Source: Chondrosia reniformis (lineage: Eukaryota > Porifera > Demospongiae > Chondrillida > Chondrillidae). From it: DNA of 64,000 bases. Position 1 is the first letter of the stretch, and each line of letters begins with the position of its first letter. Under the pieces are notes generated by a model, which was not told the origin of the DNA, searched no databases, and was given only the letters and a program-made list of their open reading frames with translations. Position numbers and translations under genes: made by a program. The stretch spans positions 436,501 through 500,500 of the forward strand of contig OX359196.1 of NCBI GenBank assembly GCA_947172415.1, read 5' to 3'. Of this stretch, positions 29,438 to 60,688 are shown piece after piece.

Positions 29438-29483
<46 letters not shown>

Positions 29484-34177: not shown

Positions 34178-34186
34178 TTACCTATA

Positions 34187-34257
<71 letters not shown>

Positions 34258-34440
34258 TAACGTGCCACATGCATAGCACTAGGACAAACTGTCCTATGAG
34301 GCACACACCAATACATCATGACAAATAAATCAGTTCAACAAAACATTAAGTCATCAATCAAAGGTCAACTAAATCTAGCAGTCCATATCTTCAAAATAAT
34401 CTTAAGGATTGAGTGATGCTTGCATCCTTGATCCAGAATG
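34178..34440 (-). repeat. Retroposon-like hairpin element, unit 2 copy
   Basis: A long ATT tract of about 75 bp, then a hairpin broken on one arm (GTGCCACATGCATAGCACTAGGACA instead of GTGCCTCATAGGACA), with the other arm intact. Otherwise matches 29140-29340. The expanded tract explains the poly-tyrosine reading on the minus strand nearby. Confidence 0.5.
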
Positions 34441-34535
34441 GCAATATATATATAGCCACGCATTCTTTATATACTAATAATTTATATATTATTAATTAAA
34501 TAAGTTAAAGCATAAAGAGCTAGTATACCCTTTAT

Positions 34536-34581
<46 letters not shown>

Positions 34582-34638
34582 TATTCTTCTAGTTAAAAAT
34601 AGATTTAAATTTGTTCGTGCAATGTAAGTAAATATATT

Positions 34639-37600: not shown

Positions 37601-37735
37601 AGATAGGGCAAATTTTAAGTTTCATGAAAATTTCAAAACCCCATTGTCCATGTTCTATAGATGTCTGTGAATGCTGACACAAAGGTTTAGCTTCATATCT
37701 CGCCATTTGATAGAGTTACAGAAATGCAGTTAATG
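34639..37735 (+). repeat. Satellite array B (about 18 copies)
   Basis: 169-bp monomers in the same orientation as array A. The array starts abruptly after AAGTAAATATATT, lacking roughly 350 bp of flank, including the CCTCCGTTT hairpin, present in units 1, 3 and 4. Variants alternate: TTCATCAAAA versus TTTGTCAAAA, CTAAAGATG versus CTATAGCTG, and CAACGG versus CAAAGG recur in blocks, indicating multi-monomer duplication. A monomer near 36900 is about 11 bp short. Confidence 0.95.
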
Positions 37736-39180
37736 TACTGTTTTGTTAGAGAAAATTGCGTAATACTTACTATATATGGCCGACCGTTAGAAGGTATAAT
37801 ATTATAATCAAGACAAAATTCCATACTATATCTGAAAATCTAGAATACTTTCCAATTTTTTATACATAGGGATATGCACTGTGTAGTACTTGATTGTTAT
37901 TGAAGTACTATCTATCCATATATTTTATATGGATCTCGTTAAAGTGAAATTTCGTCAATCGACAGCCAACGAAACTGCAAAGAAAAAAAGTTGGACCATA
38001 CCGAACGCTACCATCCACGACGCTCATAGGCCGGGATCGGTGGTAACGCTCTGCCGAGTTGAGCTTTGGGTGTCACTTGCGTGAGAAGAACCAGTTCTTC
38101 TCGATATGGCCGACTCATATGAATCCTAAGATATCAGATGCCAATCCCACATTACGTGGAACCCCCCCGAAATCCGGATTATTGGTGAGCACGTCTCTAT
38201 GGCACCAACCGATTAGGAGACAGCTTCAGAGTCTAAGCGCTACCAACCTCTATGGGAACCGCAACCACCATAGAGATGTGTCCAGGTAGGCCTACTATAT
38301 AAGGTTTTTCGCTTCTATTTATATGAAGTTTTGTCCAAAGAAAACGGTTGTGGTTAGGACCTTTTTTAATATATTTCTCCTTATTTCCAGATCAGTGAAT
38401 TGTTTCAAGCAAGTTTAAAGACATAGGCAGTATTAGTGGTTCACCTGAAAACTGGGAAAAGCGAAAAAAATCCTGTAAGTGTCTTGATGGGCCGAGGAGA
38501 ACGACTTTTCTGATCCCAATTATTTTCGAGAAATCGTCAATTTATTCCACGTTAATTCCAGACCAGTGAATCGTTCCAAGCAATTTTACACACATACGCA
38601 GTATTTCCAATACATCTCAAAACTGTGGCATATGGATAAAAGCCTGTATGTGTCTTGGTGGAGGGAGGAGAGCGACTTTTCATGAAACAGAAAACTAGAG
38701 ATAGTGAGAGGTCCGATATTTATCGCCTGTACGATATTAATGTCTATGATCGATATTTCAACTGACCCGGGCTGTAGGATTACTCTAAGTCTAATTCCAA
38801 AACTTAAGTTTTAGCGTAATGTACCGAGATTCAAATTTCTATATATATGCTAAATAATGTTTTCTTTAAAGAAACTGTAAGGTTTTTAAATATATATCCT
38901 GTCTATACATAAATAGCTACGCATGTATTGTGAGAGATAGGGCAAATATGAACATATATTTTACACTTCAAAAACCTTTTAGAAATGTTTCATACATGCC
39001 TGTGATTACTGATATAAAGTATTAGCTTCATAATGTTGGTGTTTGATAGAGTTACAGCCCTAAATGTACATTAACTACTAATAAACAAAGTTAATGTACT
39101 TATGTTTGGTGAGAAATAGGGCAAATTTTAAGTTCCATCAAAATTTCAAAAACTCATTGGACATACTCCATAGGTGTCTG
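37736..39180 (+). repeat. Cap block 2
   Basis: Nearly identical to cap block 1 (31481-32920), with the 2-bp deletion that closes the MADSYES frame. Ends in the same diverged satellite remnant, and the same junction to TATGGGTATATGAGTAG opens unit 3. Confidence 0.85.
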
Positions 39181-39226
39181 CCTATGGGTATATGAGTAGC
39201 ATACGTATGTGGTATGTATGCTTTAG

Positions 39227-40466
39227 GAATGGAGGGGTCGCAGAATTGCCCATGAATTTTCCTGTCATGTGACCATGTGACTAAGACTAAATCAATCAAT
39301 CAAATCAATCGGAAGTCTCTTCTAGTCCAATCCAGACTGAAACCACCTGTCCCACCTGTGCATCCACAGGAAGTGACTGAAGACAAAACAGGAAGTAATA
39401 CAGGACCCACAAGGGCACTTCCTGTAAAGCCTAATACAAGGACAGTTATTCCTTTACCCCAAGCTCACGGAGAGGCGAGTGCAAAGAGCATACCTCTCCG
39501 GCCGGCCAGCACTCCACTGCAGTGCCATTCCACTCCAATCACTGACAAGACCGCAAGGAAGAATGAGGCCAATCCATCCTTCAGTCTGAGCTCCATCAAG
39601 AGGCAGCCAGACCACTCCTACCTGACCAGCAGTCAGACACTGGGCAAGCCCGGGGCTGCAGTGAGTAGCATAACATCACCCTTCACCATTATCAGACCTT
39701 GTCAATGAGGTCAAATGCCTTGACCTGCATGTGTGCATCTCTTGGACACACTATCCAATATACGTATCTCCATCTTTCCACTACATACGTACGTATCTGT
39801 TGATTTTACTCTCCTAATCTACGTACATTTCCATGTAAATAAGATTTACTAAATAATTATTTGCAATTGGTCAGTTTTGTCGTTCTGTACGTAAACGCGA
39901 TGATTCTCTTTCCATTACCATGGCAGTGTGTGGGTGGTAAGCAACTGCCAAAGAGGAAGGGCAGACTAGTAGAAGTAGGGGCTTCCCCCAAACTACTCCC
40001 AGCTATTGAGAACAGGCCAGCATTGCGCAAGTCCCTCCCAGTGGCACCTGGTTTGAAGAGAAAGGCACTCAATGACAGAAATGCAAAACAGTCTAATCCT
40101 ACCAAACCTGCTGGTCCTGTAAAAGCAGTTAATCTTCACCAACTAAAACCTCCAGCTAAAGATGTAAAGAAAACTGCACTCAAGGTACACATGGATAGAG
40201 TGTATTATATCTGTGTAGTACGTATATAGCTAGTTACTCACACCGTGATAATGTATGATGCTTATACGTACACACAAATCAGTTATACTGCTAAGCTTTA
40301 AAGGTACGTATGTTTCACTTTGTCCCTCAATCATTCCATTACCATTGTACATAGAATGGGTGTGTAGATTAAGTTTTTCTCTCCCTCCTGTCTCTCTATG
40401 TAGAAGAAGCCATCAAGAAAGAGTCTTCTTGTTCAACCTGCAGTTAGAGTTAAACCTTTAAAATAG
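39227..40466 (+). pseudogene. Three-exon copy of the disordered-protein gene end (unit 3)
   Basis: Homologues of exons 5, 6 and 7 at about 39227-39660, 39927-40184 and 40404-40466, with splice sites and the final TAG conserved. The 4-bp insertion shared with the other copies breaks the exon 5 frame near its start, so there is no full-length reading from the founder's phase. A shorter product starting downstream of the shift is possible in principle. Differences from the founder are few and include amino-acid changes (for example A-to-I in the LPA.ENRP stretch), consistent with recent duplication and relaxed constraint. Confidence 0.8.
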
Positions 40467-40958
40467 ACAAATAATATATTCTTTATTATTTACAGTAAAT
40501 ATTAAAATTAAATAATCTAATACATTCATATTGGAACTGTAGCTGTAATATAATTAATTGTGGTTCAGTAAAAAAGGACCAATTTATTAAAGTTTTATAG
40601 TTCAAACTTATAAGCTTTAATTTAGATAGTGTCTCCATGATATTTCTTAATCGACTAGAGGACATTTGCTCCATTTTTGTTTTATACCTTTAGTGCCGCG
40701 TTGCTTATATCGTACTTATGAACATGTGCGCTGGAAACTAACATATCTAGACACACGTACTGGTACACGATATCCTGACATATCTTGGTAATGATGCCTG
40801 TGACTGCAGTCAAAGTACCGTGGGGACCGCGCAGGGTTAAAACTGAATTTTGACATCGAACTGCAAATTGGCTACGTCATGATGTATATTATAATACCAG
40901 CGAGTTTCTGGAGATATTAAGTGAGTGTATAAGCAAATTTAAGAAATATATATTGGGA

Positions 40959-41213
40959 ATGAATTACACCACAGATTGTTCTATATCAGTAGTATTGATT
41001 GCTGTAACAGTTGCTGTTATTGCTAGTGTTATCTCCTCAATTCTCACTTACTTCTGTTGTGTAAAGAAGAAGCATAAGAAGAGAGAGTCAGTAATTATAA
41101 GAGAGCAGAAAGACGAGTATGAAACAGTAGAGCAAGTTAAGACACATAAAGAAGTTGAGATACAACCATCACCAGCTTACGGAGTAGTCTTACTGAAGAA
41201 ACAAGATTTGTAA
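40959..41213 (+). CDS. Small membrane protein, copy 3
   Basis: 84 residues, the same length as copy 1, differing at few positions (THKE for THEE, AYGVVLLKKQDL for AYGVVILKKQDL) plus silent changes. Promoter elements are retained, with a 3-bp TAT insertion by the TATA box. It lies about 0.8 kb upstream of the largest satellite array. Confidence 0.62.
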   Translation: MNYTTDCSISVVLIAVTVAVIASVISSILTYFCCVKKKHKKRESVIIREQKDEYETVEQVKTHKEVEIQPSPAYGVVLLKKQDL

Positions 41214-41289
41214 CAGCACTAGCTATACATTCATTTCCAAAACTTTTGATAGAATAATGCAATATACAATAAAAAAGCATTTACCTATA

Positions 41290-41324
<35 letters not shown>

Positions 41325-41500
41325 TAACGTGCCTCATAGGACAAACTGTCCTATGAGGCACACACCAATACATCATGACAAATAAATCAGTTCAACAAAA
41401 CATTAAGTCATCAATCAAAGGTCAACTAAATCTAGCAGTCCATATCTTCAAAATAATCTTAAGGATTGAGTGATGCTTGCATCCTTGATCCAGAATGGCA
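41290..41500 (-). repeat. Retroposon-like hairpin element, unit 3 copy
   Basis: ATT tract of about 40 bp, then the intact 15-bp stem hairpin (41329-41361), matching 29170-29202 exactly. Confidence 0.5.
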
Positions 41501-42028
41501 ATATATATATAGCCACGCATTCTTTATTTACTAATAATTTATATATTATTAATTAAATAAGTTAAAGCATAAAGAGCTAGTATACCCTTCATATTATTAT
41601 TAATAATAATAATAATAATAATAATATATTCTTCTAGTTAAAAAAAGATTTAAATTTGTTCGTGCAATGTAAGTAAATATATTACATCTACGTACTTATT
41701 CTAACTGATATATATACAGAGCAAGTTACAATATACTAATTAAGGTAATCTAATATAAATGAATAAATAAAAAATATAGTATAATTAAATAATTCATATG
41801 GCTCAAAGAAAGGACCTAGAAACAGAATGGTTATATTTTCATCAAGTTTAGGGTATAAAACTCATTTTAAATTAAGAGACTTTTTATTTAGGCCTCCGTT
41901 TGTTAGAAAACGGAAGACAAAGTCTGCATTTAAAAGGCCATAGGACTATAGAAAACCTATAGGCAATTTATATTCAAACCATATGTTATATTGATAAAAA
42001 AAAAATGTCAGATAACTATGAAAGGAAC

Positions 42029-45000
42029 ATGTCTGTGAAAGCTGACAAAGTCAAAGCTTCATATCTTTAAATTTGATAGAGTGACAGCCCTCAATGAACA
42101 TTAAATTCTGGTATACAAACTTAATGTATGGTGAGAGATAAGGCAAATTTTAAGTTTTGTCAAAGTTTCAAAAACCCATTGTCCATGTTCTATAGATGTC
42201 TGTGAATGCTGACACAAAGGTTTAGCTTCATATCTCTCCATTTGATAGAGTGACAGCCCTCAATGTACATTAAATTCTGGTATACAAAGTTAATGTATTG
42301 TGAGAGATAGGGCAAATTTTAAGTTTTGTCAAAATTTCTAAAACCCATTGTCCATGTTCTATAGATGTCTTTGAATGCTAACACAAAGGTTTAGTTTCAT
42401 ATCTCTCCATTTGATAGAGTGACAGCCATCAATGTACGTTAAATTCTGGTATACAAAGTTAATGTATTGTGAGAAATAGGGCAAATTTTAAGTTTTGTCA
42501 AAATTTCAAAAACCCATTGTCCATGTTCTATAGATGTCTGTGAATGCTGACACAAAGGTTTAGCTTCATATTTCCCCATTTGATAAAGTGACAGTCCTCA
42601 ATGTACATTAAATTCTGATATACAAAGTTAATGTATTGTGAGAGATAAGGCAAATTTTAAGTTTTGTCAAAATTTCTAAAACCCATTGTCCATGTTCTAT
42701 AGATGTCTTTGAATGTTAACACAAAGGTTTAGTTTCATATCTCTCCATTTGATAGAGTGACAGCCCTCAATGTACATTAAATTCTGGTATACAAAGTTAA
42801 TGTATTGTGAGAAATAGGGCAAATTTTAAGTTTTGTCAAAATTTCAAAAACCCATTGTCCATGTTCTATAGATGTCTGTGAATGCTGACACAAAGGTTTA
42901 GCTTCATATTTCCCCATTTGATAAAGTGACAGTCCTCAATGTACATTAAATTCTGATATACAAAGTTAATGTATTGTGAGAGATAAGGCAAATTTTAAGT
43001 TTTGTCAAAATTTCTAAAACCCATTGTCCATGTTCTATAGATGTCTTTGAATGTTAACACAAAGGTTTAGTTTCATATCTCTCCATTTGATAGAGTGACA
43101 GCCCTCAATGTACATTAAATTCTGGTATACAAAGTTAATGTATTGTGAGAGATAGGGCAAATTTTAAGTTTTGTCAAAGTTTCAAAAACCCATTGTCCAT
43201 GTTCTATAGATGTCTGTGAATGCTGACACAAAGGTTTAGCTTCATATCTCTCCATTTGATAGAGTGACAGCCCTCAATGTACATTAAATTCTGGTATACA
43301 AAGTTAATGTATTGTGAGAGATAGGGCAAATTTTAAGTTTTGTCAAAGTTTCAAAAACCCATTGTCCATGTTCTATAGATGTCTTTGAATGCTAACACAA
43401 AGGTTTAGCTTCATATCTCTCCATTTGATAGAGTGACAGCCCTCAATGTACATTAAATTCTGGTATACAAAGTTAATGTATTGTGAGAGATAGGGCAAAT
43501 TTTAAGTTTTGTCAAAGTTTCAAAAACCCATTGTCCATGTTCTATAGATGTCTGTGAATGCTGACACAAAGGTTTAGCTTCATATTTCCCCATTTGATAG
43601 AGTGACAGTCCTCAATGTACATTAAATTCTGATATACAAAGTTAATGTATTGTGAGAGATAGGGCAAATTTTAAGTTTTGTCAAAATTTCTAAAACCCAT
43701 TGTCCATGTTCTATAGATGTCTTTGAATGTTAACACAAAGGTTTAGTTTCATATCTCTCCATTTGATAGAGTGACAGCCCTCAATGTACATTAAATTCTG
43801 GTGTACAAAGTTAATGTATTGTGAGAGATAGGGCAAATTTTAAGTTTTGTCAAAGTTTCAAAAACCTATTGTCCATGTTCTATAGATGTCTGTGAATGCT
43901 GACACAAAGGTTTAGCTTCATATCTCCCCATTTGATAGAGTGACAGCCCTCAATGTACATTAAATTCTGATATACAAAGTTAATGTATTGTGAGAGATAG
44001 GGCAAATTTTAAGTTTTGTCAAAGTTTCAAAAACCCATTGTCCATGTTCTATAGATGTCTGTGAATGCTGACACAAAGGTTTAGTTTCATATCTCTCCAT
44101 TTGATAGAGTGACAGCCCTCAATGTACATTAAATTCTGGTATACAAAGTTAATGTATTGTGAGAGATAGGGCAAATTTTAAGTTTTGTCAAAATTTCTAA
44201 AACCCATTGTCCATGTTCTATAGATGTCTTTGAATGCTAACACAAAGGTTTAGTTTCATATCTCTCCATTTGATAGAGTGACAGCCCTCAATGTACATTA
44301 AATTCTGGTATACAAAGTTAATGTATTGTGAGAGATAGGGCAAATTTTAAGTTTTGTCAAAGTTTCAAAAACCCATTGTCCATGTTCTATAGATGTCTGT
44401 GAATGCTGATACAAAGGTTTAGTTTCATATCTCTCCATTTGATAGAGTGACAGCCCTCAATGTACATTAAATTCTGGTATACAAAGTTAATGTATTGTGA
44501 GAGATAGGGCAAATTTTAAGTTTTGTCAAAGATTCAAAAACCCATTGTCCATGTTCTATAGATGTCTGTGAATGCTGACACAAAGGTTTAGCTTCATATT
44601 TCCCCATTTGATAGAGTGACAGTCCTCAATGTACATTAAATTCTGATATACAAAGTTAATGTATTGTGAGAGATAAGGCAAATTTTAAGTTTTGTCAAAA
44701 TTTCTAAAACCCATTGTCCATGTTCTATAGATGTCTTTGAATGTTAACACAAAGGTTTAGTTTCATATCTCTCCATTTGATAGAGTGACAGCCCTCAATG
44801 TACATTAAATTCTGGTATACAAAGTTAATGTATTGTGAGAGATAGGGCAAATTTTAAGTTTTGTCAAAGTTTCAAAAACCCATTGTCCATGTTCTATAGA
44901 TGTCTGTGAATGCTGACACAAAGGTTTAGCTTCATATTTCCCCATTTGATAGAGTGACAGTCCTCAATGTACATTAAATTCTGATATACAAAGTTAATGT

Positions 45001-48000
45001 ATTGTGAGAGATAGGGCAAATTTTAAGTTTTGTCAAAATTTCTAAAACCCATTGTCCATGTTCTATAGATGTCTTTGAATGTTAACACAAAGGTTTAGTT
45101 TCATATCTCTCCATTTGATAGAGTGACAGCCCTCAATGTACATTAAATTCTGGTGTACAAAGTTAATGTATTGTGAGAGATAGGGCAAATTTTAAGTTTT
45201 GTCAAAGTTTCAAAAACCTATTGTCCATGTTCTATAGATGTCTGTGAATGCTGACACAAAGGTTTAGCTTCATATCTCCCCATTTGATAGAGTGACAGCC
45301 CTCAATGTACATTAAATTCTGATATACAAAGTTAATGTATTGTGAGAGATAGGACAAATTTTAAGTTTTGTCAAAGTTTCAAAAACCCATTGTCCATGTT
45401 CTATAGATGTCTGTGAATGCTGACACAAAGGTTTAGTTTCATATCTCTCCATTTGATAGAGTGACAGCCCTCAATGTACATTAAATTCTGGTATACAAAG
45501 TTAATGTATTGTGAGAGATAGGGCAAATTTTAAGTTTTGTCAAAATTTCTAAAACCCATTGTCCATGTTCTATAGATGTCTTTGAATGCTAACACAAAGG
45601 TTTAGTTTCATATCTCTCCATTTGATAGAGTGACAGCCCTCAATGTACATTAAATTCTGGTATACAAAGTTAATGTATTGTGAGAGATAGGGCAAATTTT
45701 AAGTTTTGTCAAAGTTTCAAAAACCCATTGTCCATGTTCTATAGATGTCTGTGAATGCTGATACAAAGGTTTAGTTTCATATCTCTCCATTTGATAGAGT
45801 GACAGCCCTCAATGTACATTAAATTCTGGTATACAAAGTTAATGTATTGTGAGAGATAAGGCAAATTTTAAGTTTTGTCAAAGATTCAAAAACCCATTGT
45901 CCATGTTCTATAGATGTCTGTGAATGCTGACACAAAGGTTTAGCTTCATATTTCCCCATTTGATAGAGTGACAGTCCTCAATGTACATTAAATTCTGATA
46001 TACAAAGTTAATGTATTGTGAGAGATAAGGCAAATTTTAAGTTTTGTCAAAATTTCTAAAACCCATTGTCCATGTTCTATAGATGTCTTTGAATGTTAAC
46101 ACAAAGGTTTAGTTTCATATCTCTCCATTTGATAGAGTGACAGCCCTCAATGTACATTAAATTCTGGTATACAAAGTTAATGTATTGTGAGAGATAGGGC
46201 AAATTTTAAGTTTTGTCAAAGTTTCAAAAACCCATTGTCCATGTTCTATAGATGTCTGTGAATGCTGACACAAAGGTTTAGCTTCATATCTCTCCATTTG
46301 ATAGAGTGACAGCCCTCAATGTACATTAAATTCTGGTATACAAAGTTAATGTATTGTGAGAGATAGGGCAAATTTTAAGTTTTGTCAAAGTTTCAAAAAC
46401 CCATTGTCCATGTTCTATAGATGTCTTTGAATGCTAACACAAAGGTTTAGTTTCATATCTCTCCATTTGATAGAGTGACAGCCCTCAATGTACATTAAAT
46501 TCTGGTATACAAAGTTAATGTATTGTGAGAGATAGGGCAAATTTTAAGTTTTGTCAAAGTTTCAAAAACCCATTGTCCATGTTCTATAGATGTCTGTGAA
46601 TGCTGACACAAAGGTTTAGCTTCATATTTCCCCATTTGATAGAGTGACAGTCCTCAATGTACATTAAATTCTGATATACAAAGTTAATGTATTGTGAGAG
46701 ATAGGGCAAATTTTAAGTTTTGTCAAAGTTTCAAAAACCCATTGTCCATGTTCTATAGATGTCTGTGAATGCTGACACAAAGGTTTAGCTTCATATCTCT
46801 CCATTTGATAGAGTGACAGCCCTCAATGTACATTAAATTCTGGTATACAAAGTTAATGTATTGTGAGAGATAGGGCAAATTTTAAGTTTCATCAAAATTT
46901 CAAAAACCCATTGTCCATGTTCTAAAGATGTCTGTGAATGCTGACACAAAGGTTTAGCTTCATATCTCTCCATTTGATAGAGTGACAGCCCTCAATGTAC
47001 ATTAAATTCTGGTATACAAAGTTAATGTATTGTGAGAGATAGGGCAAATTTTAAGTTTTGTCAAAATTTCAAAAACCCATTGTCCATGTTCTATAGATGT
47101 CTGTGAATGCTGACACAAAGGCTTAGCTTCATATCTCTCCATTTGATAGAGTGACAGCCCTCAATGTACATTAAATTCTGGTATACAAAGTTAATGTATT
47201 GTGAGAGATAGGGCAAATTTTAAGTTTTGTCAAAGTTTCAAAAACCCATTGTCCATGTTCTATAGATGTCTGTGAATGCTGACACAAAGGTTTAGCTTCA
47301 TATCTCTCCATTTGATAGAGTGACAGCCCTCAATGTACATTAAATTCTGGTATACAAAGTTAATGTATTGTGAGAGATAGGGCAAATTTTAAGTTTTGTC
47401 AAAATTTCTAAAACCCATTGTCCATGTTCTATAGATGTCTTTGAATGTTAACACAAAGGTTTAGTTTCATATCTCTCCATTTGATAGAGTGACAGCCCTC
47501 AATGTACATTAAATTCTGGTATACAAAGTTAATGTATTGTGAGAGATAGGGCAAATTTTAAGTTTTGTCAAAGTTTCAAAAACCCATTGTCCATGTTCTA
47601 TAGATGTCTGTGAATGCTGACACAAAGGTTTAGCTTCATATCTCTCCATTTGATAGAGTGACAGCCCTCAATGTACATTAAATTCTGGTATACAAAGTTA
47701 ATGTATTGTGAGAGATAGGGCAAATTTTAAGTTTTGTCAAAATTTCTAAAACCCATTGTCCATGTTCTATAGATGTCTTTGAATGCTAACACAAAGGTTT
47801 AGTTTCATATCTCTCCATTTGATAGAGTGACAGCCCTCAATGTACATTAAATTCTGGTATACAAAGTTAATGTATTGTGAGAGATAGGGCAAATTTTAAG
47901 TTTTGTCAAAGTTTCAAAAACCCATTGTCCATGTTCTATAGATGTCTGTGAATGCTGATACAAAGGTTTAGCTTCATATCTCCCCATTTGATAGAGTGAC

Positions 48001-51000
48001 AGTCCTCAATGTACATTAAATTCTGATATACAAAGTTAATGTATTGTGAGAGATAAGGCAAATTTTAAGTTTTGTCAAAATTTCTAAAACCCATTGTCCA
48101 TGTTCTATAGATGTCTTTGAATATTAACACAAAGGTTTAGTTTCATATCTCTCCATTTGATAGAGTGACAGCCCTCAATGTACATTAAATTCTGGTATAC
48201 AAAGTTAATGTATTGTGAGAGATAGGGCAAATTTTAAGTTTTGTCAAAGTTTCAAAAACCCATTGTCCATGTTCTATAGATGTCTTTGAATGCTAACACA
48301 AAGGTTTAGTTTCATATCTCTCCATTTGATAGAGTGACAGCCCTCAATGTACATTAAATTCTGATATACAAAGTTAATGTATTGTGAGAGATAGGGCAAA
48401 TTTTAAGTTTTGTCAAAATTTCTAAAACCCATTGTCCATGTTCTATAGATTTCTTTGAATGCTAACACAAAGGTTTAGTTTCATATCTCTCCATTTGATA
48501 GAGTGACAGCCCTCAATGTACATTAAATTCTGGTATACAAAGTTAATGTATTGTGAGAGATAGGGCAAATTTTAAGTTTTGTCAAAATTTCTAAAACCCA
48601 TTGTCCATGTTCTATAGATGTCTTTGAATGCTAACACAAAGGTTTAGTTTCATATCTCTCCATTTGATAGAGTGACAGTCCTCAATGTACATTAAATTCT
48701 GATATACAAAGTTAATGTATTGTGAGATATAAGGCAAATTTTAAGTTTTGTCAAAATTTCTAAAACCCATTGTCCATGTTCTATAGATGTCTTTGAATGT
48801 TAACACAAAGGTTTAGTTTCATATCTCTCCATTTGATAGAGTGACAGCCCTCAATGTACATTAAATTCTGGTATACAAAGTTAATGTATTGTGAGAGATA
48901 GGGCAAATTTTAAGTTTTGTCAAAGTTTCAAAAACCCATTGTCCATGTTCTATAGATGTCTGTGAATGCTGACACAAAGGTTTAGCTTCATATCTCTCCA
49001 TTTGATAGAGTGACAGCCCTCAATGTACGTTAAATTCTGGTATACAAAGTTAATGTATTGTGAGAGATAGGGCAAATTTTAAGTTTTGTCAAAGTTTCAA
49101 AAACCCATTGTCCATGTTCTATAGATGTCTGTGAATGCTGACACAAAGGTTTAGCTTCATATCTCTCCATTTGATAGAGTGACAGCCCTCAATGTACATT
49201 TAATTCTGGTATACAAAGTTAATGTATTGTGAGAGATAGGGCAAATTTTAAGTTTTGTCAAAATTTCTAAAACCCATTGTCCATGTTCTATAGATGTCTT
49301 TGAATGCTAACACAAAGGTTTAGTTTCATATCTCTCCATTTGATAGAGTGACAGCCCTCAATGTACATTAAATTCTGGTATACAAAGTTAATGTATTGTG
49401 AGAGATAGGGCAAATTTTAAGTTTTGTCAAAGTTTCAAAAACCCATTGTCCATGTTCTATAGATGTCTGTGAATGCTAACACAAAGGTTTAGCTTCATAT
49501 CTCTCCATTTGATAGAGTGACAGTCCTCAATGTACATTAAATTCTGATATACAAAGTTAATGTATTGTGAGAGATAAGGCAAATTTTAAGTTTTGTCAAA
49601 ATTTCTAAAACCCATTGTCCATGTTCTATAGATGTCTTTGAATGTTAACACAAAGGTTTAGTTTCATATCTCTCCATTTGATAGAGTGACAGCCCTCAAT
49701 GTACATTAAATTCTGGTATACAAAGTTAATGTATTGTGAGAGATAGGGCAAATTTTAAGTTTTGTCAAAGTTTCAAAAACCCATTGTCCATGTTCTATAG
49801 ATGTCTGTGAATGCTGATACAAAGGTTTAGCTTCATATCTCTCCATTTGATAGAGTGACAGTCCTCAATGTACATTAAATTCTGATATACAAAGTTAATG
49901 TATTGTGAGAGATAAGGCAAACTTTAAGTTTTGTCAAAATTTCTAAAACCCATTGTCCATGTTCTATAGATGTCTTTGAATGTTAACACAAAGGTTTAGT
50001 TTCATATCTCTCCATTTGATAGAGTGACAGCCCTCAATGTACATTAAATTCTGGTATACAAAGTTAATGTATTGTGAGAGATAGGGCAAATTTTAAGTTT
50101 TGTCAAAGTTTCAAAAACCCATTGTCCATGTTCTATAGATGTCTGTGAATGCTGACACAAAGGTTTAGTTTCATATTTCTCCATTTGATAGAGTGACAGC
50201 CCTCAATGTACATTAAATTCTGGTATACAAAGTTAATGTATTGTGAGAGATAGGGCAAATTTTAAGTTTTGTCAAAATTTCTAAAACCCATTGTCCATGT
50301 TCTATAGATGTCTTTGAATGCTAACACAAAGGTTTAGTTTCATATCTCTCCATTTGATAGAGTGACAGCCCTCAATGTACATTAAATTCTGGTATACAAA
50401 GTTAATGTATTGTGAGAGATAGGGCAAATTTTAAGTTTTGTCAAAATTTCAAAAACCCATTGTCCATGTTCTATAGATGTCTGTGAATGCTGACACAAAG
50501 GTTTAGCTTCATATCTCTCCATTTGATAGAGTGACAGTCCTCAATGTACATTAAATTCTGATATACAAAGTTAATGTATTGTGAGAGATAGGGCAAATTT
50601 TAAGTTTTGTCAAAATTTCAAAAACCCATTATCCATGTTCTATAGATGTCTGTGAATGCTGATACAAAGGTTTAGCTTCATATTTCCCCATTTGATAGAG
50701 TGACAGCCCTCAATGTACATTAAATTCTGATATACAAAGTTAATGTATTGTGAGAGATAGGGCAAATTTTAAGTTTTGTCAAAATTTCTAAAACCCATTG
50801 TCCATGTTCTATAGATGTCTTTGAATGCTAACACAAAGGTTTAGTTTCATATCTCTCCATTTGATAGAGTGACAGCCCTCAATGTACATTAAATTCTGGT
50901 ATACAAAGTTAATGTATTGTGAGAGATAGGGCAAATTTTAAGTTTTGTCAAAATTTCTAAAACCCATTATCCATGTTCTATAGATGTCTGTGAATGCTGA

Positions 51001-54000
51001 CACAAAGCTTAGCTTCATATCTCCCCATTTGATAGAGTGACAACCCTCAATGAACATTAAATTCTGGTATACAAACTTAATGTATGGTGAGAGATAAGGC
51101 AAATTTTAAGTTTTGTCAAAGTTTCAAAAACCCATTGTCCATGTTCTATAGATGTCTGTGAATGCTGACACAAAGGTTTAGCTTCATATTTCCCCATTTG
51201 ATAGAGTGACAGTCCTCAATGTACATTAAATTCTGATATACAAAGTTAATGTATTGTGAGAGATAGGGCAAATTTTAAGTTTTGTCAAAATTTCTAAAAC
51301 CCATTGTCCATGTTCTATAGATGTCTTTGAATGCTAACACAAAGGTTTAGTTTCATATCTCTCCATTTGATAGAGTGACAGCCCTCAATGTACATTAAAT
51401 TCTGGTATACAAAGTTAATGTATTGTGAGAGATAGGGCAAATTTTAAGTTTTGTCAAAATTTCTAAAACCCATTGTCCATGTTCTATAGATGTCTTTGAA
51501 TGCTAACACAAAGGTTTAGTTTCATATCTCTCCATTTGATAGAGTGACAGCCCTCAATGTACATTAAATTCTGGTATACAAAGTTAATGTATTGTGAGAG
51601 ATAGGGCAAATTTTAAGTTTTGTCAAAGTTTCAAAAACCCATTGTCCATGTTCTATAGATGTCTGTGAATGCTGATACAAAGGTTTAGCTTCATATCTCC
51701 CCATTTGATAGAGTGACAGTCCTCAATGTACATTAAATTCTGATATACAAAGTTAATGTATTGTGAGAGATAGGGCAAATTTTAAATTTCATCAAAATTT
51801 CAAAAACCCATTGTCCATGTTCTATAGATGTCTGTGAATGCTGACACAAAGGTTTAGTTTCATATCTCTCCATTTGATAGAGTGACAGTCCTCAATGTAC
51901 ATTAAATTCTGGAATACAAAGTTAATGTATTGTGAGAGATAGGGCAAATTTTAAGTTTTGTCAAAATTTCAAAAAACCAATGTCCATGTTCTATAGATGT
52001 CTGTGAATGCTGACACAAAGGTTTAGCTTCATATTTCCCCATTTGATAGAGTGACAGTCCTCAATGTACATTAAATTCTGATATACAAAGTTAATGTATT
52101 GTGAGAGATAGGGCAAATTTTAAGTTTTGTCAAAATTTCTAAAACCCATTGTCCATGTTCTATAGATGTCTTTGAATGCTAACACAAAGGTTTAGTTTCA
52201 TATCTCTCCATTTGATAGAGTGACAGCCCTCAATGTACATTAAATTCTGGTATACAAAGTTAATGTATTGTGAGAGATAGGGCAAATTTTAAGTTTTGTC
52301 AAAGTTTCAAAAACCCATTGTCCTTGTTCTATAGATGTCTGTGAATGCTGACACAAAGGTTTAGCTTCATATCTCTCCATTTGATAGAGTGACAGTCCTC
52401 AATGTAAATCAAATTCTGATATACAAAGTTAATGTATTGTGAGAGATAGGGCAAATTTTAAGTTTTGTCAAAATTTCAAAAACCCATTATCCATGTTCTA
52501 TAGATGTCTGTGAATGCTGACACAAAACTTAGCTTCATATCTCCCCATTTGATAGAGTGACAGCCCTCAATGTACATTAAATTCTGGTATACAAACTTAA
52601 TGTATTGTGAGAGATAAGGCAAATTTTAAGTTTTGTCAAAATTTCAAAAACCCATTGTCCATGTTCTATAGATGTCTGTGAATGCTGACACAAAGGTGAA
52701 GCTTCATATCTCCCCATTAGATAGAGTGACAGTCCTCAATGTACATCAAATTCTGATATACAAAGTTAATGTATTGTGAGAGATAGGGCAAATTTTAAAT
52801 TTCATCAAAATTTCAAAAACCATTGTCCATGTTCTATAGATGTCTGTGAATGCGGACACAAAGGTTTAGTTTCATATCTCTCCATTTGATAGAGTGACAG
52901 CCCTCAATATACATTAAATTCTGGAATACAAAGTTAATGTATTGTGAGAGATAGGCAAATTTAAAGTTTTGTTAAAATTTCAAAAAACCATTGTCAATGT
53001 TCTATAGATGTCTGTGATTGCTGATAAAAAGGTTTAGCTTCATATCTCTCCATTTGATAGAGTGACAGCCCTCAATGTACATTAAATTCTGGTATACAAA
53101 GTTAATGTATTGTGAGAGATAAGGCAAATTTTAAGTTTTGTCAAAATTTCAAAAACCCATTATCCATGTTCTATAGATGTCTGTGAATGCTGACACAAAG
53201 GCTTAGCTTCATATCTCCCCATTTGATAGAGTGACAGTCCTCAATGTACATTAAATTCTGGAATACAAAGTTAATGTATTGTGAGAGATAGGGCAAATTT
53301 TAAGTTTTGTTAAAATTTCAAAAAACCATTGTCCATGTTCTATAGATGTCTGTGAATGCTGACACAAAGGTTTAGCTTCATATTTCCCCATTTGATAGAG
53401 TTACAGCCCTCAATATACATTAAATTCTGGTATTCAAAGTTAATGTATTGTGAGAGATAAGGCAAATTTTATGTTCCATCAAAATTTCAAAAACTCATTA
53501 GACATGCTCTATAGGTGTCTGTAAATGCTGACACAAAGTGTTAGCTTCATATCTCTCCATTTGATAGAGATACAGCCCGTAATGTACATTAAATTCAGGT
53601 ATACGAAATTAATATAAGGTGAGAGATAGGGCAAATTTTATGTTCCATCAAAATTTCAAAAACCTATTGGACATTCTCTATAGATGTCTGTGAATGCTGA
53701 CACAAAGTGTTAGCTTCATATCTCACCATTTGATAGAGTTACAGCCCTCAATGTACATTAAATGCTGGTATTCAAAGTTAATGTATGGTGAGAGATAAGG
53801 CAAATTTTATGTTCCATCAAAATTTCAAAACCTCATTGGACATTCTCTATAGATGTCTGTGAATGCTGACACAAAGTGTTAGCTTCATATCTCTCCATTT
53901 GATAGAGTTACAGCCGGCAATGTACATTACATTCCAGTATATGAAATTAATGTATGGTGAGCGATAAGGCAAATTTTAAGTTCCATCCAAATTTCAAAAA

Positions 54001-54089
54001 CTCATTGATCATTCTTAATAGATGTCTGTGAATGCTGACACTAAGTCACAGCTTCATATATATCCAATTGATAGAGTTACAGAACTACA
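42029..54089 (+). repeat. Satellite array C (about 71 copies, with higher-order repeat)
   Basis: The largest array, about 12 kb of 169-bp monomers. Two main variants interleave: one with GTGAATGCTGACACAAAGG and TTTCCCCATTTG, another with TTTGAATGTTAACACAAAGG and TCTCTCCATTTG. Private variants recur 1,352 bp (8 x 169) apart: TGGTGTAC at 43799 and 45151, CAAAAACCTA at 43859 and 45211, GATTCAAAAA at 44531 and 45883, GAATGCTGAT at 44401 and 45753. The last five or so monomers (from about 53380) belong to a diverged second family (ACACAAAGTGTTAG, TTATGTTCCATC). Confidence 0.96.
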
Positions 54090-55205
54090 GTTAATGTATT
54101 GAATTGTTAGAGAAATTGCGTAATACTATATATGGCCGACCGTTAGAAGGTTTACAATATAGACAACATTCCATTCTATATCTGAAAATCCAGAACACTT
54201 TCCAATTTTTTATACATAGGGATATGCACTGTGCAGTACTTGATTGTTATCGAAGTACTATCTATCCATATATAATATATGGATGTCGTTAAAGTGAAAT
54301 TTTGCCGATCGACGGCCAACGAAACTCCAAAGAAAAAAAGTTGGACCATACCGAACGCTACCATCCACGACGCTCAGAGGCCGGGATCGGTGGTAACGCT
54401 CTGCCGAGTTGAGCTTTGGGTGTCACTTGCGTGAGAAGAACCAGTTCTTCTCGATATGGCCGACTCATATGAATCCTAAGATATCAGATGCCAATCCCAC
54501 ATTACGTGGAACCCCCCCGAAATCCGGATTATTGGTGAGCACGTCTCTATGGCACCAACCGATTAGGAGACAGCTTCAGAGTCTAAGCGCTACCAACCTC
54601 TATGGGAACCGCAACCACCATAGAGATGTGTCCAGGTAGGCCTACTTTATAAGGTTTTTCGCTTCTATTTATATGAAGTTTTGTCCAAAGAAAACGGTTG
54701 TGGTTGGGGCATTTTTTTACAAATTTCTCGTTATTTCCAGATCAGTGAATTGTTCCAAGCAAATTTAAAGACATAGGCAGTATTAGTGGTTCATCTGAAA
54801 ACTGGGGAAAGCGGAAAAAAACAGTAAGTGTCTTGATGGGCCGAGGAGAACGACTTTTCTGATCCCAATTATTTTCGAGAAATCGTCAAATTATTCCACT
54901 TTAATTCCAGACCAGTGAATCGTTCCAAACAATTTTACACGCATACGCAGTATTTCCAATACATCTCAAAACTGTGACAAATGGATAAAAGCCAGTATGT
55001 ATCTTGATGGAGATAGGAAAGCGACTTTTCTTGATGCCGAAAATTAGAGATATTGCGAGTAGACTGATATTTATCGCCTCTACGATATTAATGTCTATGA
55101 TCGATATTGCAACTAGACCGGGCTGTATGAATTACTCAATTCCTAATTTAAATTTTAGAATTGAGAGAATAATGTACCGATAAAAATAGATTCTTATTTC
55201 TAGAC
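54090..55205 (+). repeat. Cap block 3 (shortened)
   Basis: Matches cap block 1, but is more diverged after about 54700 and stops near 55200 with ATAAAAATAGATTCTTATTT. It goes directly into satellite array D, without the gene-end copy or small membrane gene. Its first part agrees with cap 4 (for example GGTTTACAATATAGACAACA), so caps 3 and 4 are closest relatives there. Confidence 0.8.
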
Positions 55206-57900
55206 AAGGTATACAAAGTTAAAGTATGGTGAGATATAAGGCAAATTTTATGTTCCATCAAAATTTCAAAAACTCATTGAACATGCTCTATAGATGTCTG
55301 TGAATGCTGACACAAAGTGTTAGCTTCATATCTCTCCATTTGATAGAGTTACAGCCCGCAATGTACATTAAAGTCAGGTATACGAAATTAATGTATGGTG
55401 GGATATAAGGCAAATTTTATGCTCCATCAAAATTTCAAAAACCTATTGGACATTTTCTATAGCTGTCTGTGAATGCTGACACAAATTGTTAGCTTCATAT
55501 CTCTCCATTTGATAGAGTTACAGCCGGCAATGTACATTACATTCCAGTATACGAAATTAATATATGGTGAGATATAAAGAAATTTTATGTTCCATCAAAA
55601 TTTCAAAAACTCATTAGACATGCTCTATAGATGTCTGTTAATGCTGACACAAAGTGTTAGCTTCATATTTCTCCATTTGATAGAGTTACAGCCCTCAATA
55701 TACATTAAATTCTGGTATTCAAAGTTAATGTATGGTGAGATATAAGGCAAATTTTATGTTCCATCAAAATTTCAAAAACTCATTAGACATGCTCTATAGA
55801 TGTCTGTAAATGCTGACACAAAGTGTTAGCTTCATATCTCTCCATTTGATAGAGTTACAGCCCTCAATGTACATTAAATTCTGGTATTCAAAGTTAATGT
55901 ATGGTGAGAGATAAGGCAAATTTTATGTTCCATCAAAATTTCAAAAACCTATTGGACATTCTCTATAGATGTCTGTGAATGCTGACACAAAGTGTTAGCT
56001 TCATATCTCTCCATTTGATAGAGTGACAGCCCTCAATGTACATTAAATTCTGGTTTTCAAAGTTAATGTATGGTGAGAGATAAGGCAAATTTTATGTTCC
56101 ATCAAAATTTCAAAAACCTATTGGACATTCTCTATAGATGTCTGTGAATGTTGACACAAAGTGTTAGCTTCATATCTCTCCATTTGATAGAGTTACAGCC
56201 GGCAATGTACATTACATTCCAGTATACGAAATTAATGTATGGTGAGAGATAAGGCAAATTTTATGTTCCATCAAAATTTCAAAAACTCATTAGACATGCT
56301 CTATAGATGTCTGTGAATGCTGACACAAAGTGTTAGCTTCATATCTCTCTATTTGATAGAGATACAGCCCGCAATGTACATTAAATTCAGGTATACGAAA
56401 TTAATGTATGGTGAGAGATAAGGCAAATTTTAAGTTCCATCAAAATTTCAAAAACTCATTAGACATGCTCTATAGATGTCTGTTAATGCTGACACAAAGT
56501 GTTAGCTTCATATCTCTCCATTTGATAGAGTTACAGCCCTCAATATACATTAAATTCAGGTATTCAAAGTTAATGTATGGTGAGAGATAAGGCAAATTTT
56601 ATGTTCCATCAAAATTTCAAAAACTCATTAGACATGTTCTATAGGTGTCTGTAAATGCTGACACAAAGTGTTAGCTTCATATCTCTCCATTTGATAGAGA
56701 TACAGCCCGTAATGTACATTAAATTCAGGTATACGAAATTAATATAAGGTGAGAGATAAGGCAAATTTTATGCTCCATCAAAATTTCAAAAACCTATTGT
56801 CCATGTTCTATAGATGTCTCTGAATGCTGACACAAAGGTTTAGCTTCATATCTCTCCATTTGATAGAGTGACAGCCCTCAATGTACATTAAATTCTGGTA
56901 TACAAAGTTAATTAATGTATTGTGAGAGATAGGGCAAATTTAAAATTTCATCAAAATTTCAAAAACCCATTATCCATGTTCTAAAGATGTCTGTGAATGC
57001 TGACACAAAGGCTTAGGTTCATATCTCCCCATTTGATAGAGTCACAGTCCTCAATGTACATTAAATTCTGGTATACAAAGTTAATGTATTGTGAGAGATA
57101 GGGCAAATTTTAAATTTCATCAAAATTTCAAAAACCCATTGTCCATGTTCTATAGATGTCTGTGAATGCTGACACAAAGGTTTAGCTTCATATCTCTCCA
57201 TTTGATAGAGTGACAGTCCTCAATGTACATTAAATTCTGGTATACAAAGTTAATGTTTTGTGAGAGTTAAGGCAAATTTTAAATTTCCTGAAAATTTCAA
57301 AAACCCATTGTCCATGTTCTATAGATGTCTGTGAATGCTGACACAAAGGTTTAGCTTCATATCTCTCCATTTGATAGAGTGACAGCCCTCAATGTACATT
57401 AAATTCTGGTATACAAAGTTAATGTATTGTGAGAGATAGGGCAAATTTTAAATTTCATCAAAATTTCAAAAACCCATTGTCCATGTTCTATAGATGTCTG
57501 TGAATGCTGACACAAAGGTTTAGCTTCATATCTCTCCATTTGATAGAGTGACAGCCCTCAATGTACATTAAATTCTGATATACAAAGTTAATGTATTGTG
57601 AGAGATAGGGTAAATTTTAAATTTCATCAAAATTTCAAAAACCCATTGTCCATGTTCTATAGATGTCTGTGAATGCTGACACAAAGGTTTAGCTTCATAT
57701 CTCTCCATTTGATAGAGTGACAGTCCTCAATGTACATTAAATTCTGGTATACAAAGTTAATGTATTGTGAGAGATAGGGCAAATTTTAAGTTTTGTCAAA
57801 ATTTCAAAAACCCATTGTCCATGTTCTATAGATGTCTGTGAATGCTGACACAAAGGTTTAGCTTCATATCTCGCTATTTGATAGAGTTACAGAAATGCAG
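55206..57900 (+). repeat. Satellite array D (about 16 copies, two families)
   Basis: The left two thirds are diverged second-family monomers (ACACAAAGTGTTAGCTTC, ATTAATGTATGGTGAG, AGACATGCTCTATAG). The right third, from a chimeric monomer near 56790 (CCTATTGTCCATGTTC), are first-family monomers. Period stays at 169 bp. The order of families is opposite to arrays C and E. Confidence 0.94.
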
Positions 57901-59320
57901 TTAATGTACGGTTTTGTTAGAGAAAATTGCGTAATACTATATATGGCCGACCGTTAGAAGGTTTACAATATAGACAACATTCCATTCTATATCTGAAAAT
58001 CCAGAACACTTTCCAATTTTTTATACATAGGGATATGCACTGTGCAGTACTTGATTGTTATCGAAGTACTATCTATCCATATATAATATATGGATGTCGT
58101 TAAAGTGAAATTTTGCCGATCGACGGCCAACGAAACTCCAAAGAAAAAAAGTTGGACCATACCGAACGCTACCATCCACGACGCTCAGAGGCCGGGATCG
58201 GTGGTAACGCTCTGCCGAGTTGAGCTTTGGGTGTCACTTGCGTGAGAAGAACCAGTTCTTCTCGATATGGCCGACTCATATGAATCCTAAGATATCAGAT
58301 GCCAATCCCACATTACGTGGAACCCCCCCGAAATCCGGATTATTGGTGAGCACGTCTCTATGGCACCAACCGATTAGGAGACAGCTTCAGAGTCTAAGCG
58401 CTACCAACCTCTATGGGAACCGCAACCACCATAGAGATGTGTCCAGGTAGGCCTACTTTATAAGGTTTTTCGCTTCTATTATATGAAGTTTTGTCCAAAG
58501 AAAACGGTTGTGGTTAGGACCTTTTTTAATATATTTCTCCTTATTTCCAGATCAGTGAATTGTTTCAAGCAAGTTTAAAGACATAGGCAGTATTAGTGGT
58601 TCACCTGAAAACTGGGAAAAGCGAAAAAAATCCTGTAAGTGTCTTGATGGGCCGAGGAGAACGACTTTTCTGATCCCAATTATTTTCGAGAAATCGTCAA
58701 TTTATTCCACGTTAATTCCAGACCAGTGAATCGTTCCAAGCAATTTTACACACATACGCAGTATTTCCAATACATCTCAAAACTGTGGCAAATGGATAAA
58801 AGCCTGTATGTGTCTTGGTGGAGGGAGGAGAGCGACTTTTCATGAAACAGAAAACTAGAGATAGTGAGAGGTCCGATATTTATCGCCTTGACGATATTAA
58901 TGTCTATGATCGATATTTCAACTGACCCGGCTGTAGGAATTACTCTAAGTCTAATTCCAAAACTTAAGTTTTAGCGTAATGTACCGAGATTCAAATTTCT
59001 ATATATATACTAAATAATGTTTTCTTTAAAGAAACTGTAAGGTTTTTAAATATATATCCTGTCTATACATAAATAGATAGAGCAAATATGAGCATATATT
59101 TTACACTTCAAAAACCTTTCAGAAATGTTTCATACATGCCTGTGATTACTGATATAAAGTATTAGCTTCATAATGTTGGTGTTTGATAGAGTTACAGCCC
59201 TAAATGTACATTAACTACTAATAAACAAAGTTAATGTACTTATGTTTGGTGAGAAATAGGGCAAATTTTAAGTTCCATCAAAATTTCAAAAACTCATTGG
59301 ACATACTCCATAGGTGTCTG
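57901..59320 (+). repeat. Cap block 4
   Basis: Left part agrees with cap 3; the right part (from about 58500) agrees with caps 1 and 2, so it may be recombinant. Contains both hairpins and the diverged satellite remnant, then the junction to unit 4. Confidence 0.8.
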
Positions 59321-59366
59321 CCTATGGGTATATGAGTAGCATACGTATGTGGTATGTATGCTTTAG

Positions 59367-59688
59367 GAATGGAGGGGTCGCAGAATTGCCCATTAATTTT
59401 CCTGTCATGTGACCCCATGTGACTAAGACTAAATCAACCAATCAAATCAATCGGAAGTCTCTTCTAGTCCAATCCAGACTGAAACCACCTGTCCCACCTG
59501 TGCATCCACAGGAAGTGACTGCAGACAAAACAGGAAGTAATACAGGACCCACAAGGGCACTTCCTGTAAAGCCTAATACAAGGACAGTTACTCCTTTACC
59601 CCAAGCTCCCGGAGAGGCGAGTGCAAAGAACATACCTCTTCGGCCAGCCAGCACTTCACTGCAGTGCCATTCCACTCCAATCACTGAC
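59367..59688 (+). pseudogene. Truncated exon 5 copy (unit 4)
   Basis: Matches the start of exon 5 with the same 4-bp insertion, then breaks after CCAATCACTGAC and joins TGGAATTGTAGCTATAAT, a spacer sequence found at about 33409 in unit 2. Exons 6-7 are lost, with a different breakpoint from unit 2. Confidence 0.85.
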
Positions 59689-60247
59689 TGGAATTGTAGC
59701 TATAATATAATTAATTGTGGTTCAGTAAAAAAGGACCAATTTATTAAAGCTCAAACTTATAAGCTTTAATTTAGATAGTGTCTCCATGACATTTCTTAAT
59801 CGACTAGAGGACATTTGCTCCATTTTTGTTCTATACCTTTAGTGCCGCGTTGCTTATATCGTGCTTATGAACATGTGCGCTGGAAACTAACATATCTAGA
59901 CACACGTACTGGTACACGATATCCTGACATATCTTGGTAATGATGCCTGTGACTGCAGTCAAAGTACCGTGGGGACCGCGCAGGGTTAAAATCATCAAAA
60001 CTGTCCTATGAGGCACACACCAATACATCATGACAAATAAATCAGTTCAACAAAACATTAAGTCATCAATCAAAGGTCAACTAAATCTAGCAGTCCATAT
60101 CTTCAAAATAATCTTAAGGATTGAGTGATGCTTGCATCCTTGATCCAGAATGGCAATATATATATAGCCACGCATTCTTTATTTACTAATAATTTATATA
60201 TTATTAATTAAATAAGTTAAAGCATAAAGAGCTAGTATACCCTTCAT

Positions 60248-60284
<37 letters not shown>

Positions 60285-60688
60285 TATTCTTCTAGTTAAA
60301 AATAGATTTAAATTTGTTCGTGCAATGTAAGTAAATATATTACATCTACGTACTTATTCTAACTGATATATATACAGAGCAAGTTACAATATACTAATTA
60401 AGGTAATCTAATATAAATGAATAAATAAAAAATATAGTATAATTAAATAATTCATATGGCTCAAAGAAAGGATCTACAAGCAGAATGGTTATATTTTCAT
60501 CAAGTTTAGGGTATAAAACTCATTTTGAATTAAGAGACTTTTAATTTAGGCCTCCGTTTGTTAGAAAACGGAGGACAAAGTGTGCATATAAAAGGCCATA
60601 GGCCTAAAGAAAACCTATAGGCAATTTATATTCAAACCATATGTTATATTGATAAAAAAAAATTGTCAGATAACTATGAAAGGAACAT
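59689..60688. other. Unit 4 spacer with small membrane gene deleted
   Basis: The spacer follows units 1-3 to GCGCAGGGTTAAAA near 59990, then jumps to ACTGTCCTATGAGGCAC, the right arm of the hairpin element. The TATA promoter, the small membrane gene, the ATT tract and the left hairpin arm are therefore missing. The rest (60010-60688) is the AT-rich flank, including CCTCCGTTT/AAACGGAGG. Confidence 0.75.

Follow-up and report, generated by a model that had tools for sequence, protein, structure and literature searches.

A recent eight-monomer duplication within a 169-bp array of a dispersed composite repeat of the sponge Chondrosia reniformis

Organization of the composite repeat

The window, a stretch of 64,000 nucleotides of the Chondrosia reniformis genome, contains five tandem arrays of a 169-bp monomer (A1 to A5), copies of a spacer (S) and four copies of a host segment (H). 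All these features are given on the plus strand.

27066–29887, +, host segment H, copy 1 (includes the frame 28707–29063)
29888–31467, +, 169-bp array A1 (TRF)
31468–32507, +, spacer S, copy 1 (CpG observed/expected 0.99)
32508–32918, +, S2, tail of the composite element, about 1.5 degenerate monomers (about 78% identity)
32919–34637, +, host segment H, copy 2, with an internal deletion
34638–37721, +, 169-bp array A2 (TRF)
37722–38763, +, spacer S, copy 2 (sequence comparison)
39183–42028, +, host segment H, copy 3
42029–54082, +, array A3, the main 169-bp satellite, 70 whole monomers (TRF, monomer table)
54088–55207, +, spacer S, copy 3 (aligns to S up to 55180)
55208–57892, +, 169-bp array A4, two subfamilies (TRF, monomer table)
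57893–58923, +, spacer S, copy 4 (sequence comparison)
59321–60686, +, host segment H, copy 4, with an internal deletion
60687–63930, +, 169-bp array A5, two subfamilies (TRF, monomer table)
63936–64000, +, spacer S, copy 5, start only (runs on into locus L009)

Arrays of variable length alternate with the spacer of about 1.05 kb, and together they form a composite repeat. Of the 14 stretches with arrays that were examined, 12 have S next to an array. L019 and L020 show no S, and L020 carries an unrelated 1.6-kb spacer. Main-type copies on several chromosomes pass from array to S at one and the same phase of the monomer, and in L024 four S copies are spaced 2,473 bp. A genome search for S returned 976 first-look candidates; all 40 that were scored match at 95–100% over nearly all of the 1,035 bp and lie on at least 10 chromosomes. 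Two S fragments (L018:8744-8905 and L014:5862-5996) end before reaching the core of the spacer described below.

Within the window, H and the composite element have been duplicated together, whereas H is not found in L012–L024. Locally, the two have been amplified jointly, as a series of the form H-(array-S)-H-(array-S). The frame 28707–29063 in the first copy of H resembles a single-pass membrane protein.

The components differ in CpG content. The observed/expected ratio is 0.99–1.07 in S, 0.02–0.15 in the arrays, 0.47–0.52 in H and 0.35 in the unique part. A high ratio does not set S apart, since the unrelated spacer of L020 also reaches 0.72. No sponge satellite of this kind was found among the matches listed in the open-licence literature on sponge and Chondrosia repeats (titles and abstract starts), and the words "satellite" and "centromere" are absent from the main text of the C. 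reniformis genome paper.

The duplication in array A3

A3 comprises 70 whole monomers, of which 66 measure 169 bp and four 168 bp. Monomers 1–66 form one subfamily and monomers 67–70 a divergent second one. Three stretches of repeated monomers are considered here.

42534–43040, +, local dimer repeat of 338 bp (same variant set in monomers 3 and 5)
43410–44761, +, block of eight monomers, first copy, 1,352 bp (monomer table, lag-1,352 comparison)
44762–46289, +, second copy of the block, the match continuing for about 176 bp beyond it (lag-1,352 comparison)

A first-pass annotation of this DNA had noted four pairs of variant sites (43799/45151, 43859/45211, 44401/45753 and 44531/45883), each exactly 1,352 bp apart, and a dimer pair (42571/42909) at 338 bp; all these spacings are correct. 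The variants had also been described as private. This holds for three of the pairs, where the 21-mer holding the variant occurs in the window only at the two named sites, but not for 44401/45753, because its 21-mer recurs at four further places in the window.

Monomers 9–16 and 17–24 differ at two of 1,352 bases (first-copy positions 44002 and 44507), in agreement with the proposal of two almost identical 8-mers. Apart from these two positions, the sequence from 43410 to 44937 is free of mismatches at lag 1,352, and the duplicated block therefore extends from about 43,410 to 46,289, slightly beyond the 43,540–46,250 first suggested. With eight monomers it forms the longest near-identical run in A3, compared with at most five when the order of monomers 1–66 was shuffled 2,000 times.

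In a monomer-by-monomer comparison with the block included, lag 8 has a z-score of -4.6 in A3. When monomers 17–24 are cut out and the ends joined, it falls to -2.4 (p 0.01), weaker than lags 2, 4 and 6 (-3.2, -3.8 and -3.2, respectively), and within monomers 25–66 alone lag 8 gives p 0.12. Outside the duplication A3 thus has a dimer rhythm rather than an eight-step rhythm, and a multi-monomer unit repeated several times at high identity is not found in this array, which holds two copies of the 8-mer only. The 1,352-bp periodicity of A3 is a single duplication event.

The first-pass annotation had invoked recent unequal exchange. This process, or a local duplication of equivalent effect, is well supported by the two differences in 1,352 bases and by recent duplications of other sizes elsewhere. 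L019 contains a lag-12 run of 11 monomers with no differences, and further runs occur at lag 7 in L020, lag 5 in L016, lag 17 in L018 and lag 3 in L021. We infer unequal exchange or replication slippage as the mechanism of this one recent tandem duplication of eight 169-bp monomers.

A near-invariant core in the spacer

Each of the four full S copies in the window contains a core that hardly varies; two short motifs at the core ends are listed for copy 1.

31713–32037, strand unset, minus reading favoured, core of S copy 1, 325 bp, RNA-like candidate
37971–38293, strand unset, core of S copy 2
54321–54643, strand unset, core of S copy 3
58132–58454, strand unset, core of S copy 4
31725–31731, -, run of seven T at one core end, putative pol III terminator-like signal
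32040–32046, - (TATATAA on the plus strand), TATA-like box at the other core end, putative role

Across 18 main-type S copies (six divergent copies excluded), six of 323 core columns are variable, compared with 114 of 604 in the flanks (Fisher p 1.8e-16). In the left flank, 48–49 of 194 bases separate the three C4 copies from the main consensus, but in the core one base of 323–325 does. The most divergent core (L015:872-1231) carries 10 substitutions in 323 bases and a 37-base insertion, and in two divergent copies the TATA-like box is altered or interrupted.

A protein was rejected as the product of the core, which has no reading frame open throughout in either orientation and whose copies are polymorphic for a 2-base indel. 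Searches of Rfam gave no match for the core at E values up to 10 and none in the whole window at gathering score. Three Rfam matches to S or the monomer were considered as known RNAs and discarded, all being far below their gathering scores. No tRNA or tmRNA was found in the window (bacterial code), and k-mers of the core have no exact match in viral_contigs or genome_contigs. The predicted RNA fold improves only slightly on those of shuffled sequences, with a z-score of -2.0 for the minus strand (7 of 200 shuffles as good) and -1.75 for the plus strand (9 of 200).

A TATA-like box and a T run flanking a conserved block are compatible with a pol III-type gene, although motifs this short carry little weight where DNA is AT-rich. 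Our best guess is that pol III would transcribe the core from the minus strand. We tentatively propose that each S may be an active copy of an undescribed RNA gene family of about 280–300 nt, read on the minus strand from the TATA-like box to the T7 run. Hundreds of copies would be dispersed in the genome and kept uniform by selection together with gene conversion across chromosomes, with the CpG-poor 169-bp arrays serving as intergenic spacers.

The arrangement is reminiscent of RNA genes repeated in tandem with repetitive spacers, such as ribosomal units with their intergenic spacers and 5S and snRNA arrays. Both combine a conserved, transcribed-like block with a variable, repetitive spacer and are homogenised by exchange. 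Unlike in those arrays, the sponge core fits no Rfam family, its units are dispersed over at least 10 chromosomes and its transcription is putative.

Variants of the core occur in shuffled combinations across chromosomes and S types, which lends plausibility, if short of an even chance, to the alternative that the core is not a gene and that gene conversion focused on it creates the appearance of conservation. All three pairs of core variants fail the four-gamete test, as do 57 of 96 left-by-core pairs. Recombination also reaches the left flank, where 81 of 496 pairs fail. Against conversion as the whole explanation, variation falls sharply at both core edges, roughly at the T7 run on one side and the TATA-like box on the other, and S has stayed CpG-rich within a CpG-poor window.

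Dispersal and origin of the repeat

A 30-mer of the monomer has 3,324 forward and 3,097 reverse matches in the genome (up to three mismatches). Among the matches listed, places on C1 range from 70 kb to 10.33 Mb of its 10.41 Mb, and monomer or S matches occur on at least 12 of the 14 chromosomes, on both strands. The family is thus a dispersed satellite, with tandem arrays of one monomer type at many places. Concentration at one site per chromosome is not observed, given the many places on C1 and the at least 12 of 14 chromosomes reached among the matches listed.

Dispersed arrays in both orientations, with monomers of 160–180 bp and common flanking modules, are described for Cg170/Cg_HINE of the Pacific oyster (PMC7492417). 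By analogy, the sponge arrays could be internal repeats of a non-autonomous transposon of Helitron or Helentron type, with S as a flanking module. We regard such an origin as unlikely. The oyster element has a subTIR-microsatellite-palindrome plan and a maximum of 29 monomers (PMC7492417). The longest exact inverted repeat in S is 10 bp, and the sponge arrays are longer, A3 reaching 70 monomers. In addition, the sponge arrays alternate with a spacer of about 1.05 kb that holds the near-invariant core; this spacer sits between arrays and recurs with them instead of marking one end. H, the neighbour on the left in the window, is absent from L012–L024.

In the alpha satellite of human centromeres, whose monomer is about 170 bp, unequal exchange generates near-identical multi-monomer blocks and higher-order repeats. 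The 8-mers of A3 share the near-identity (99.85%) and the monomer length, which is close to nucleosomal. The first-pass annotation read them as higher-order structure typical of large homogenising satellites, centromeric ones among them. In a true higher-order satellite of this type, repeated unequal exchange would spread an eight-monomer unit through the array. Besides the overall lag-8 signal of A3, this reading has a counterpart in L009, the next-but-one array past the window end, with a lag-8 z-score of -3.0 and a six-monomer run (monomers 8–13 versus 16–21) with six differences in total. The L009 duplication is an event separate from that in A3, because other monomer types are involved, and it is the sole result leaning towards higher-order structure. 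A tendency towards eight-monomer steps may therefore exist at the A3/L009 locus.

We nevertheless consider a true centromeric higher-order satellite very improbable. Each of the two blocks, in A3 and in L009, is present in two copies only, and lag 8 in A3 falls behind lags 2, 4 and 6 once the second A3 copy is removed. None of 11 other arrays (A2, A4, A5, L012, L014, L016, L018, L019, L021 and two in L020) has a lag-8 z-score of -2 or below, and the steps vary, L019 peaking at lag 9 and one L020 array at lag 11. Since A3 represents one duplication, other lags prevail in most of the other arrays tested and the L009 monomers differ, the data do not establish eight as the unit of the whole family. 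In contrast to alpha satellite, positions are dispersed along chromosomes and on both strands, and a chromosome-wide homogenised unit is not among the features seen. A link of the 169-bp satellite with centromeres is not supported.

False duplication of monomers during assembly is scarcely credible. At 12.05 kb, A3 is comparable in length to an average HiFi read (0.80 million reads totalling 10.31 Gb in the C. reniformis genome paper). However, two bases distinguish the copies, the roughly 2.9 kb that they occupy together fit easily into a HiFi read, and the primary assembly has a consensus quality of QV 69.8 (genome paper).

The 1,352-bp periodicity is thus probably explained by one recent tandem duplication of eight monomers in an array of a dispersed composite repeat, in which the arrays change fast and the S core stays nearly invariant. 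A3 is one segment of this repeat, whose arrays change rapidly in length and pattern. The core may be kept by selection, acting on it as a cis element or as an RNA that is transcribed, or else by gene conversion among the copies.

On its own, the 8-mer reflects the usual turnover of satellite DNA. Of wider interest is the composite repeat, in which rapidly changing arrays alternate with a core almost constant from chromosome to chromosome, and which therefore offers a direct test case for selection on a product versus focused gene conversion. Were the core transcribed, it would constitute a large RNA gene family missing from Rfam.

The eight-monomer duplication in A3

The main 169-bp satellite array of the window, A3, comprises 70 whole monomers, most of them (66) 169 bp long and the other four 168 bp. 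The first-pass annotation had described two near-identical 8-mers (eight-monomer blocks of 1,352 bp) in this array, and monomer-by-monomer comparison bears this out: monomers 9-16 and 17-24 share their variants and the order of these variants, with two differences. At the base level, the duplication is delimited as follows.

Eight-monomer duplication in A3
43410-44937 versus 44762-46289: 8-mer duplication, mismatches at 44002 and 44507

The two 8-mers diverge by 0.15%, and the run of eight near-identical monomers is longer than in any of 2,000 order shuffles of monomers 1-66 (maximum 5). All four variant pairs of the earlier description are spaced by exactly 1,352 bp, and its dimer pair is separated by 338 bp. 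Three of the four variants regarded as private are confined to their pair within the window, while the one at 44401 also occurs at four further sites.

The same annotation read these repeats as a higher-order structure. In A3, mean differences by lag (the step between compared monomers) follow an even-odd rhythm, with z values of -3.4, -3.3, -3.4, and -4.6 at lags 2, 4, 6, and 8 (below chance). Removal of the second 8-mer copy leaves lag 8 at z -2.4, with stronger signals at lags 2, 4, and 6, and monomers 25-66 alone give a lag-8 p of 0.12. By the annotation's own proposed test, A3 beyond the one duplication thus has a dimer rhythm instead of an 8-step periodicity.

Recent duplications elsewhere, in stretches fetched from outside the window, have other lags: 12 and 9 in L019, 7 in L020, 5 in L016, 17 and 3 in L018, and 3 in L021. 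In a shuffling test, a lag-8 z of -2 or below was absent from 11 of 12 arrays other than A3. The sole exception, L009, just beyond the window end, has a lag-8 z of -3.0, and its signal (L009:2325-4690) comes from a six-monomer run, 8-13 versus 16-21, with six differences. Because these monomers are of different types from the A3 block, with their nearest relatives mostly in the window arrays A4 and A5, this is an event separate from that in A3. That the locus shows two lag-8 events may be coincidence or a slight preference. On the simplest view, the block size is accidental, as unequal exchange or slippage would give. Since lag 8 fades without the second copy and most other arrays tested use other step sizes, the higher-order reading is not supported, and the 8-mer duplication itself is ordinary.

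Host segment and locus history

A host segment, H, was duplicated together with the element formed by an array and S, the spacer of about 1.05 kb that alternates with the arrays. H and the element alternate at the locus; as far as 74,298 (extended window coordinates), H occurs five times and the element four times. H was not found in L012-L024.

H copies, with exon-like frames
27066-29887
32919-34637
39183-42028
59321-60686
L009:7735-L010:298

From its residues, one H frame looks like a putative single-pass membrane protein; Pfam gave weak matches below the cut-off and none better. This frame is open in three of the four window copies (118, 134, and 119 aa). Diverged relatives of it are present in L011. 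Aligned H pieces diverge by about 2.5-10% and main-type S copies by 0-5% (S 34-632). On the assumption of similar rates and no conversion, the 0.15% between the two 8-mers would place their duplication among the youngest of these events.

The gene-bearing part of the window also contains unrelated minisatellites, one of them directly 3' of the frame matching urocanase.

Other features of the window
2155-2748, +: frame matching sperm microtubule inner protein 1
15945-16629: minisatellite, period 16
17513-17887, +: frame matching urocanase C-terminal domain
17915-18417: minisatellite, period 21
23916-24350: minisatellite, period 25

Genomic spread of the arrays and the spacer

The genome searched comprises 117,379,552 bases in 15 contigs, from C1 (10,409,357 bp) to C15 (17,451 bp), with the window at positions 436501-500500 of C8. 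The odChoReni1.1 assembly of Chondrosia reniformis is described as 117.37 Mb in 14 chromosomes, with scaffolds of up to 10.41 Mb and a mitochondrial genome that measures 17.45 kb (PMC12181767). A monomer 30-mer, allowing up to three mismatches, matches 3,324 times on the forward strand and 3,097 times on the reverse; a reversed-control 30-mer gave none in the same search. At 169 bp per match, the satellite would occupy roughly 1.1 Mb, about 0.9% of the genome. Among the matches listed, monomers lie on C1, C2, C3, C4, C6, C8 (the window contig), C9, C10, and C11, and S on C1, C4, C5, C6, C8, C9, C10, C11, C12, and C14, together at least 12 of the 14 nuclear chromosomes. The 169-bp repeat is a dispersed satellite. 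The suggestion of a centromeric array is therefore not supported, the listed C1 monomer matches, for example, spanning 70 kb to 10.33 Mb.

Sixteen stretches of 10 kb were fetched for comparison. Arrays occur in 14 of them; the two that hold none, L010 and L011, lie downstream of the window. As some stretches adjoin each other (L013-L014, L015-L016, L017-L018) or the window (L009), the 14 represent about 11 places. S is present in 12 of the 14. L019 is array throughout, without S, and in L020 another spacer of 1.6 kb (3564-5166), which does not match S and is rich in short GTAAAG/CTTTAC-type motifs, lies between arrays. A genome search with S yielded 976 first-look candidates, and all 40 that were scored match at 95-100% identity. 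Main-type S joins the array at one monomer phase on different chromosomes, and L024 holds four S copies spaced by 2,473 bp. Divergent S types, found in L017, L018, and L023 (C4, C6) and once on C11 (L015), are flanked by inverted 169-like sequence of 76-88% identity.

When 560 full-length monomers (408 distinct rows in the alignment) are compared, variation is lowest at positions 105-130 of the monomer consensus, with a mean minor frequency of 0.015 per 13-base window (0.024-0.091 in other windows). This part of the monomer may hold a binding site.

The conserved core of S

A stretch of S of about 325 bp scarcely varies across the aligned copies.

Cores in the window
31713-32037
37971-38293
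54321-54643
58132-58454

With 25 further cores in L009-L024 (26 BLAST rows), the total is 29, of which 28 are whole and one is split between L013 and L014. The alignment took in 24 S copies, without the five truncated at stretch ends. In the 18 main-type copies, six divergent ones being excluded, variable columns number 6/323 in the core versus 114/604 in the flanks (Fisher p 1.8e-16); this p is descriptive, as core boundaries were set after viewing the variation profile, and the counts are not independent, as copies within one stretch are related. Among the six divergent copies, the three from C4 have, relative to the main consensus, 48-49 differences in 194 left-flank positions and one in 323-325 core positions. 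The two L023 copies have three core differences each, and an odd L015 copy has ten plus a 37-base insertion. The S fragments L018:8744-8905 and L014:5862-5996 end before the core. Each pair of the three common core variants is found in all four combinations; copies on different chromosomes have therefore undergone recombination or conversion, unless the same mutations arose more than once.

An Rfam search of the core at E up to 10 gave no match, no reading frame spans it, and a 2-base indel segregates among its copies. The core is flanked by TATATAA (32040-32046) and seven A (31725-31731), which on the minus strand would read as a TATA-like box followed by a T7 run about 300 bp on; a weaker plus-strand alternative would combine an AT-rich stretch near S position 200 with T5 near 582. 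Folding is mildly better than in shuffles on both strands (7/200 and 9/200 as good). The CpG o/e is 0.99-1.07 in S, 0.02-0.15 in arrays, 0.47-0.52 in H, and 0.35 in the unique part of the window. The high value of S fits a putatively unmethylated unit; it is not peculiar to S, since the unrelated L020 spacer reaches 0.72.

The uniformity of the core may be kept by selection or by focused conversion, and it is this conserved core, rather than the 8-mer, that is the part worth pursuing.
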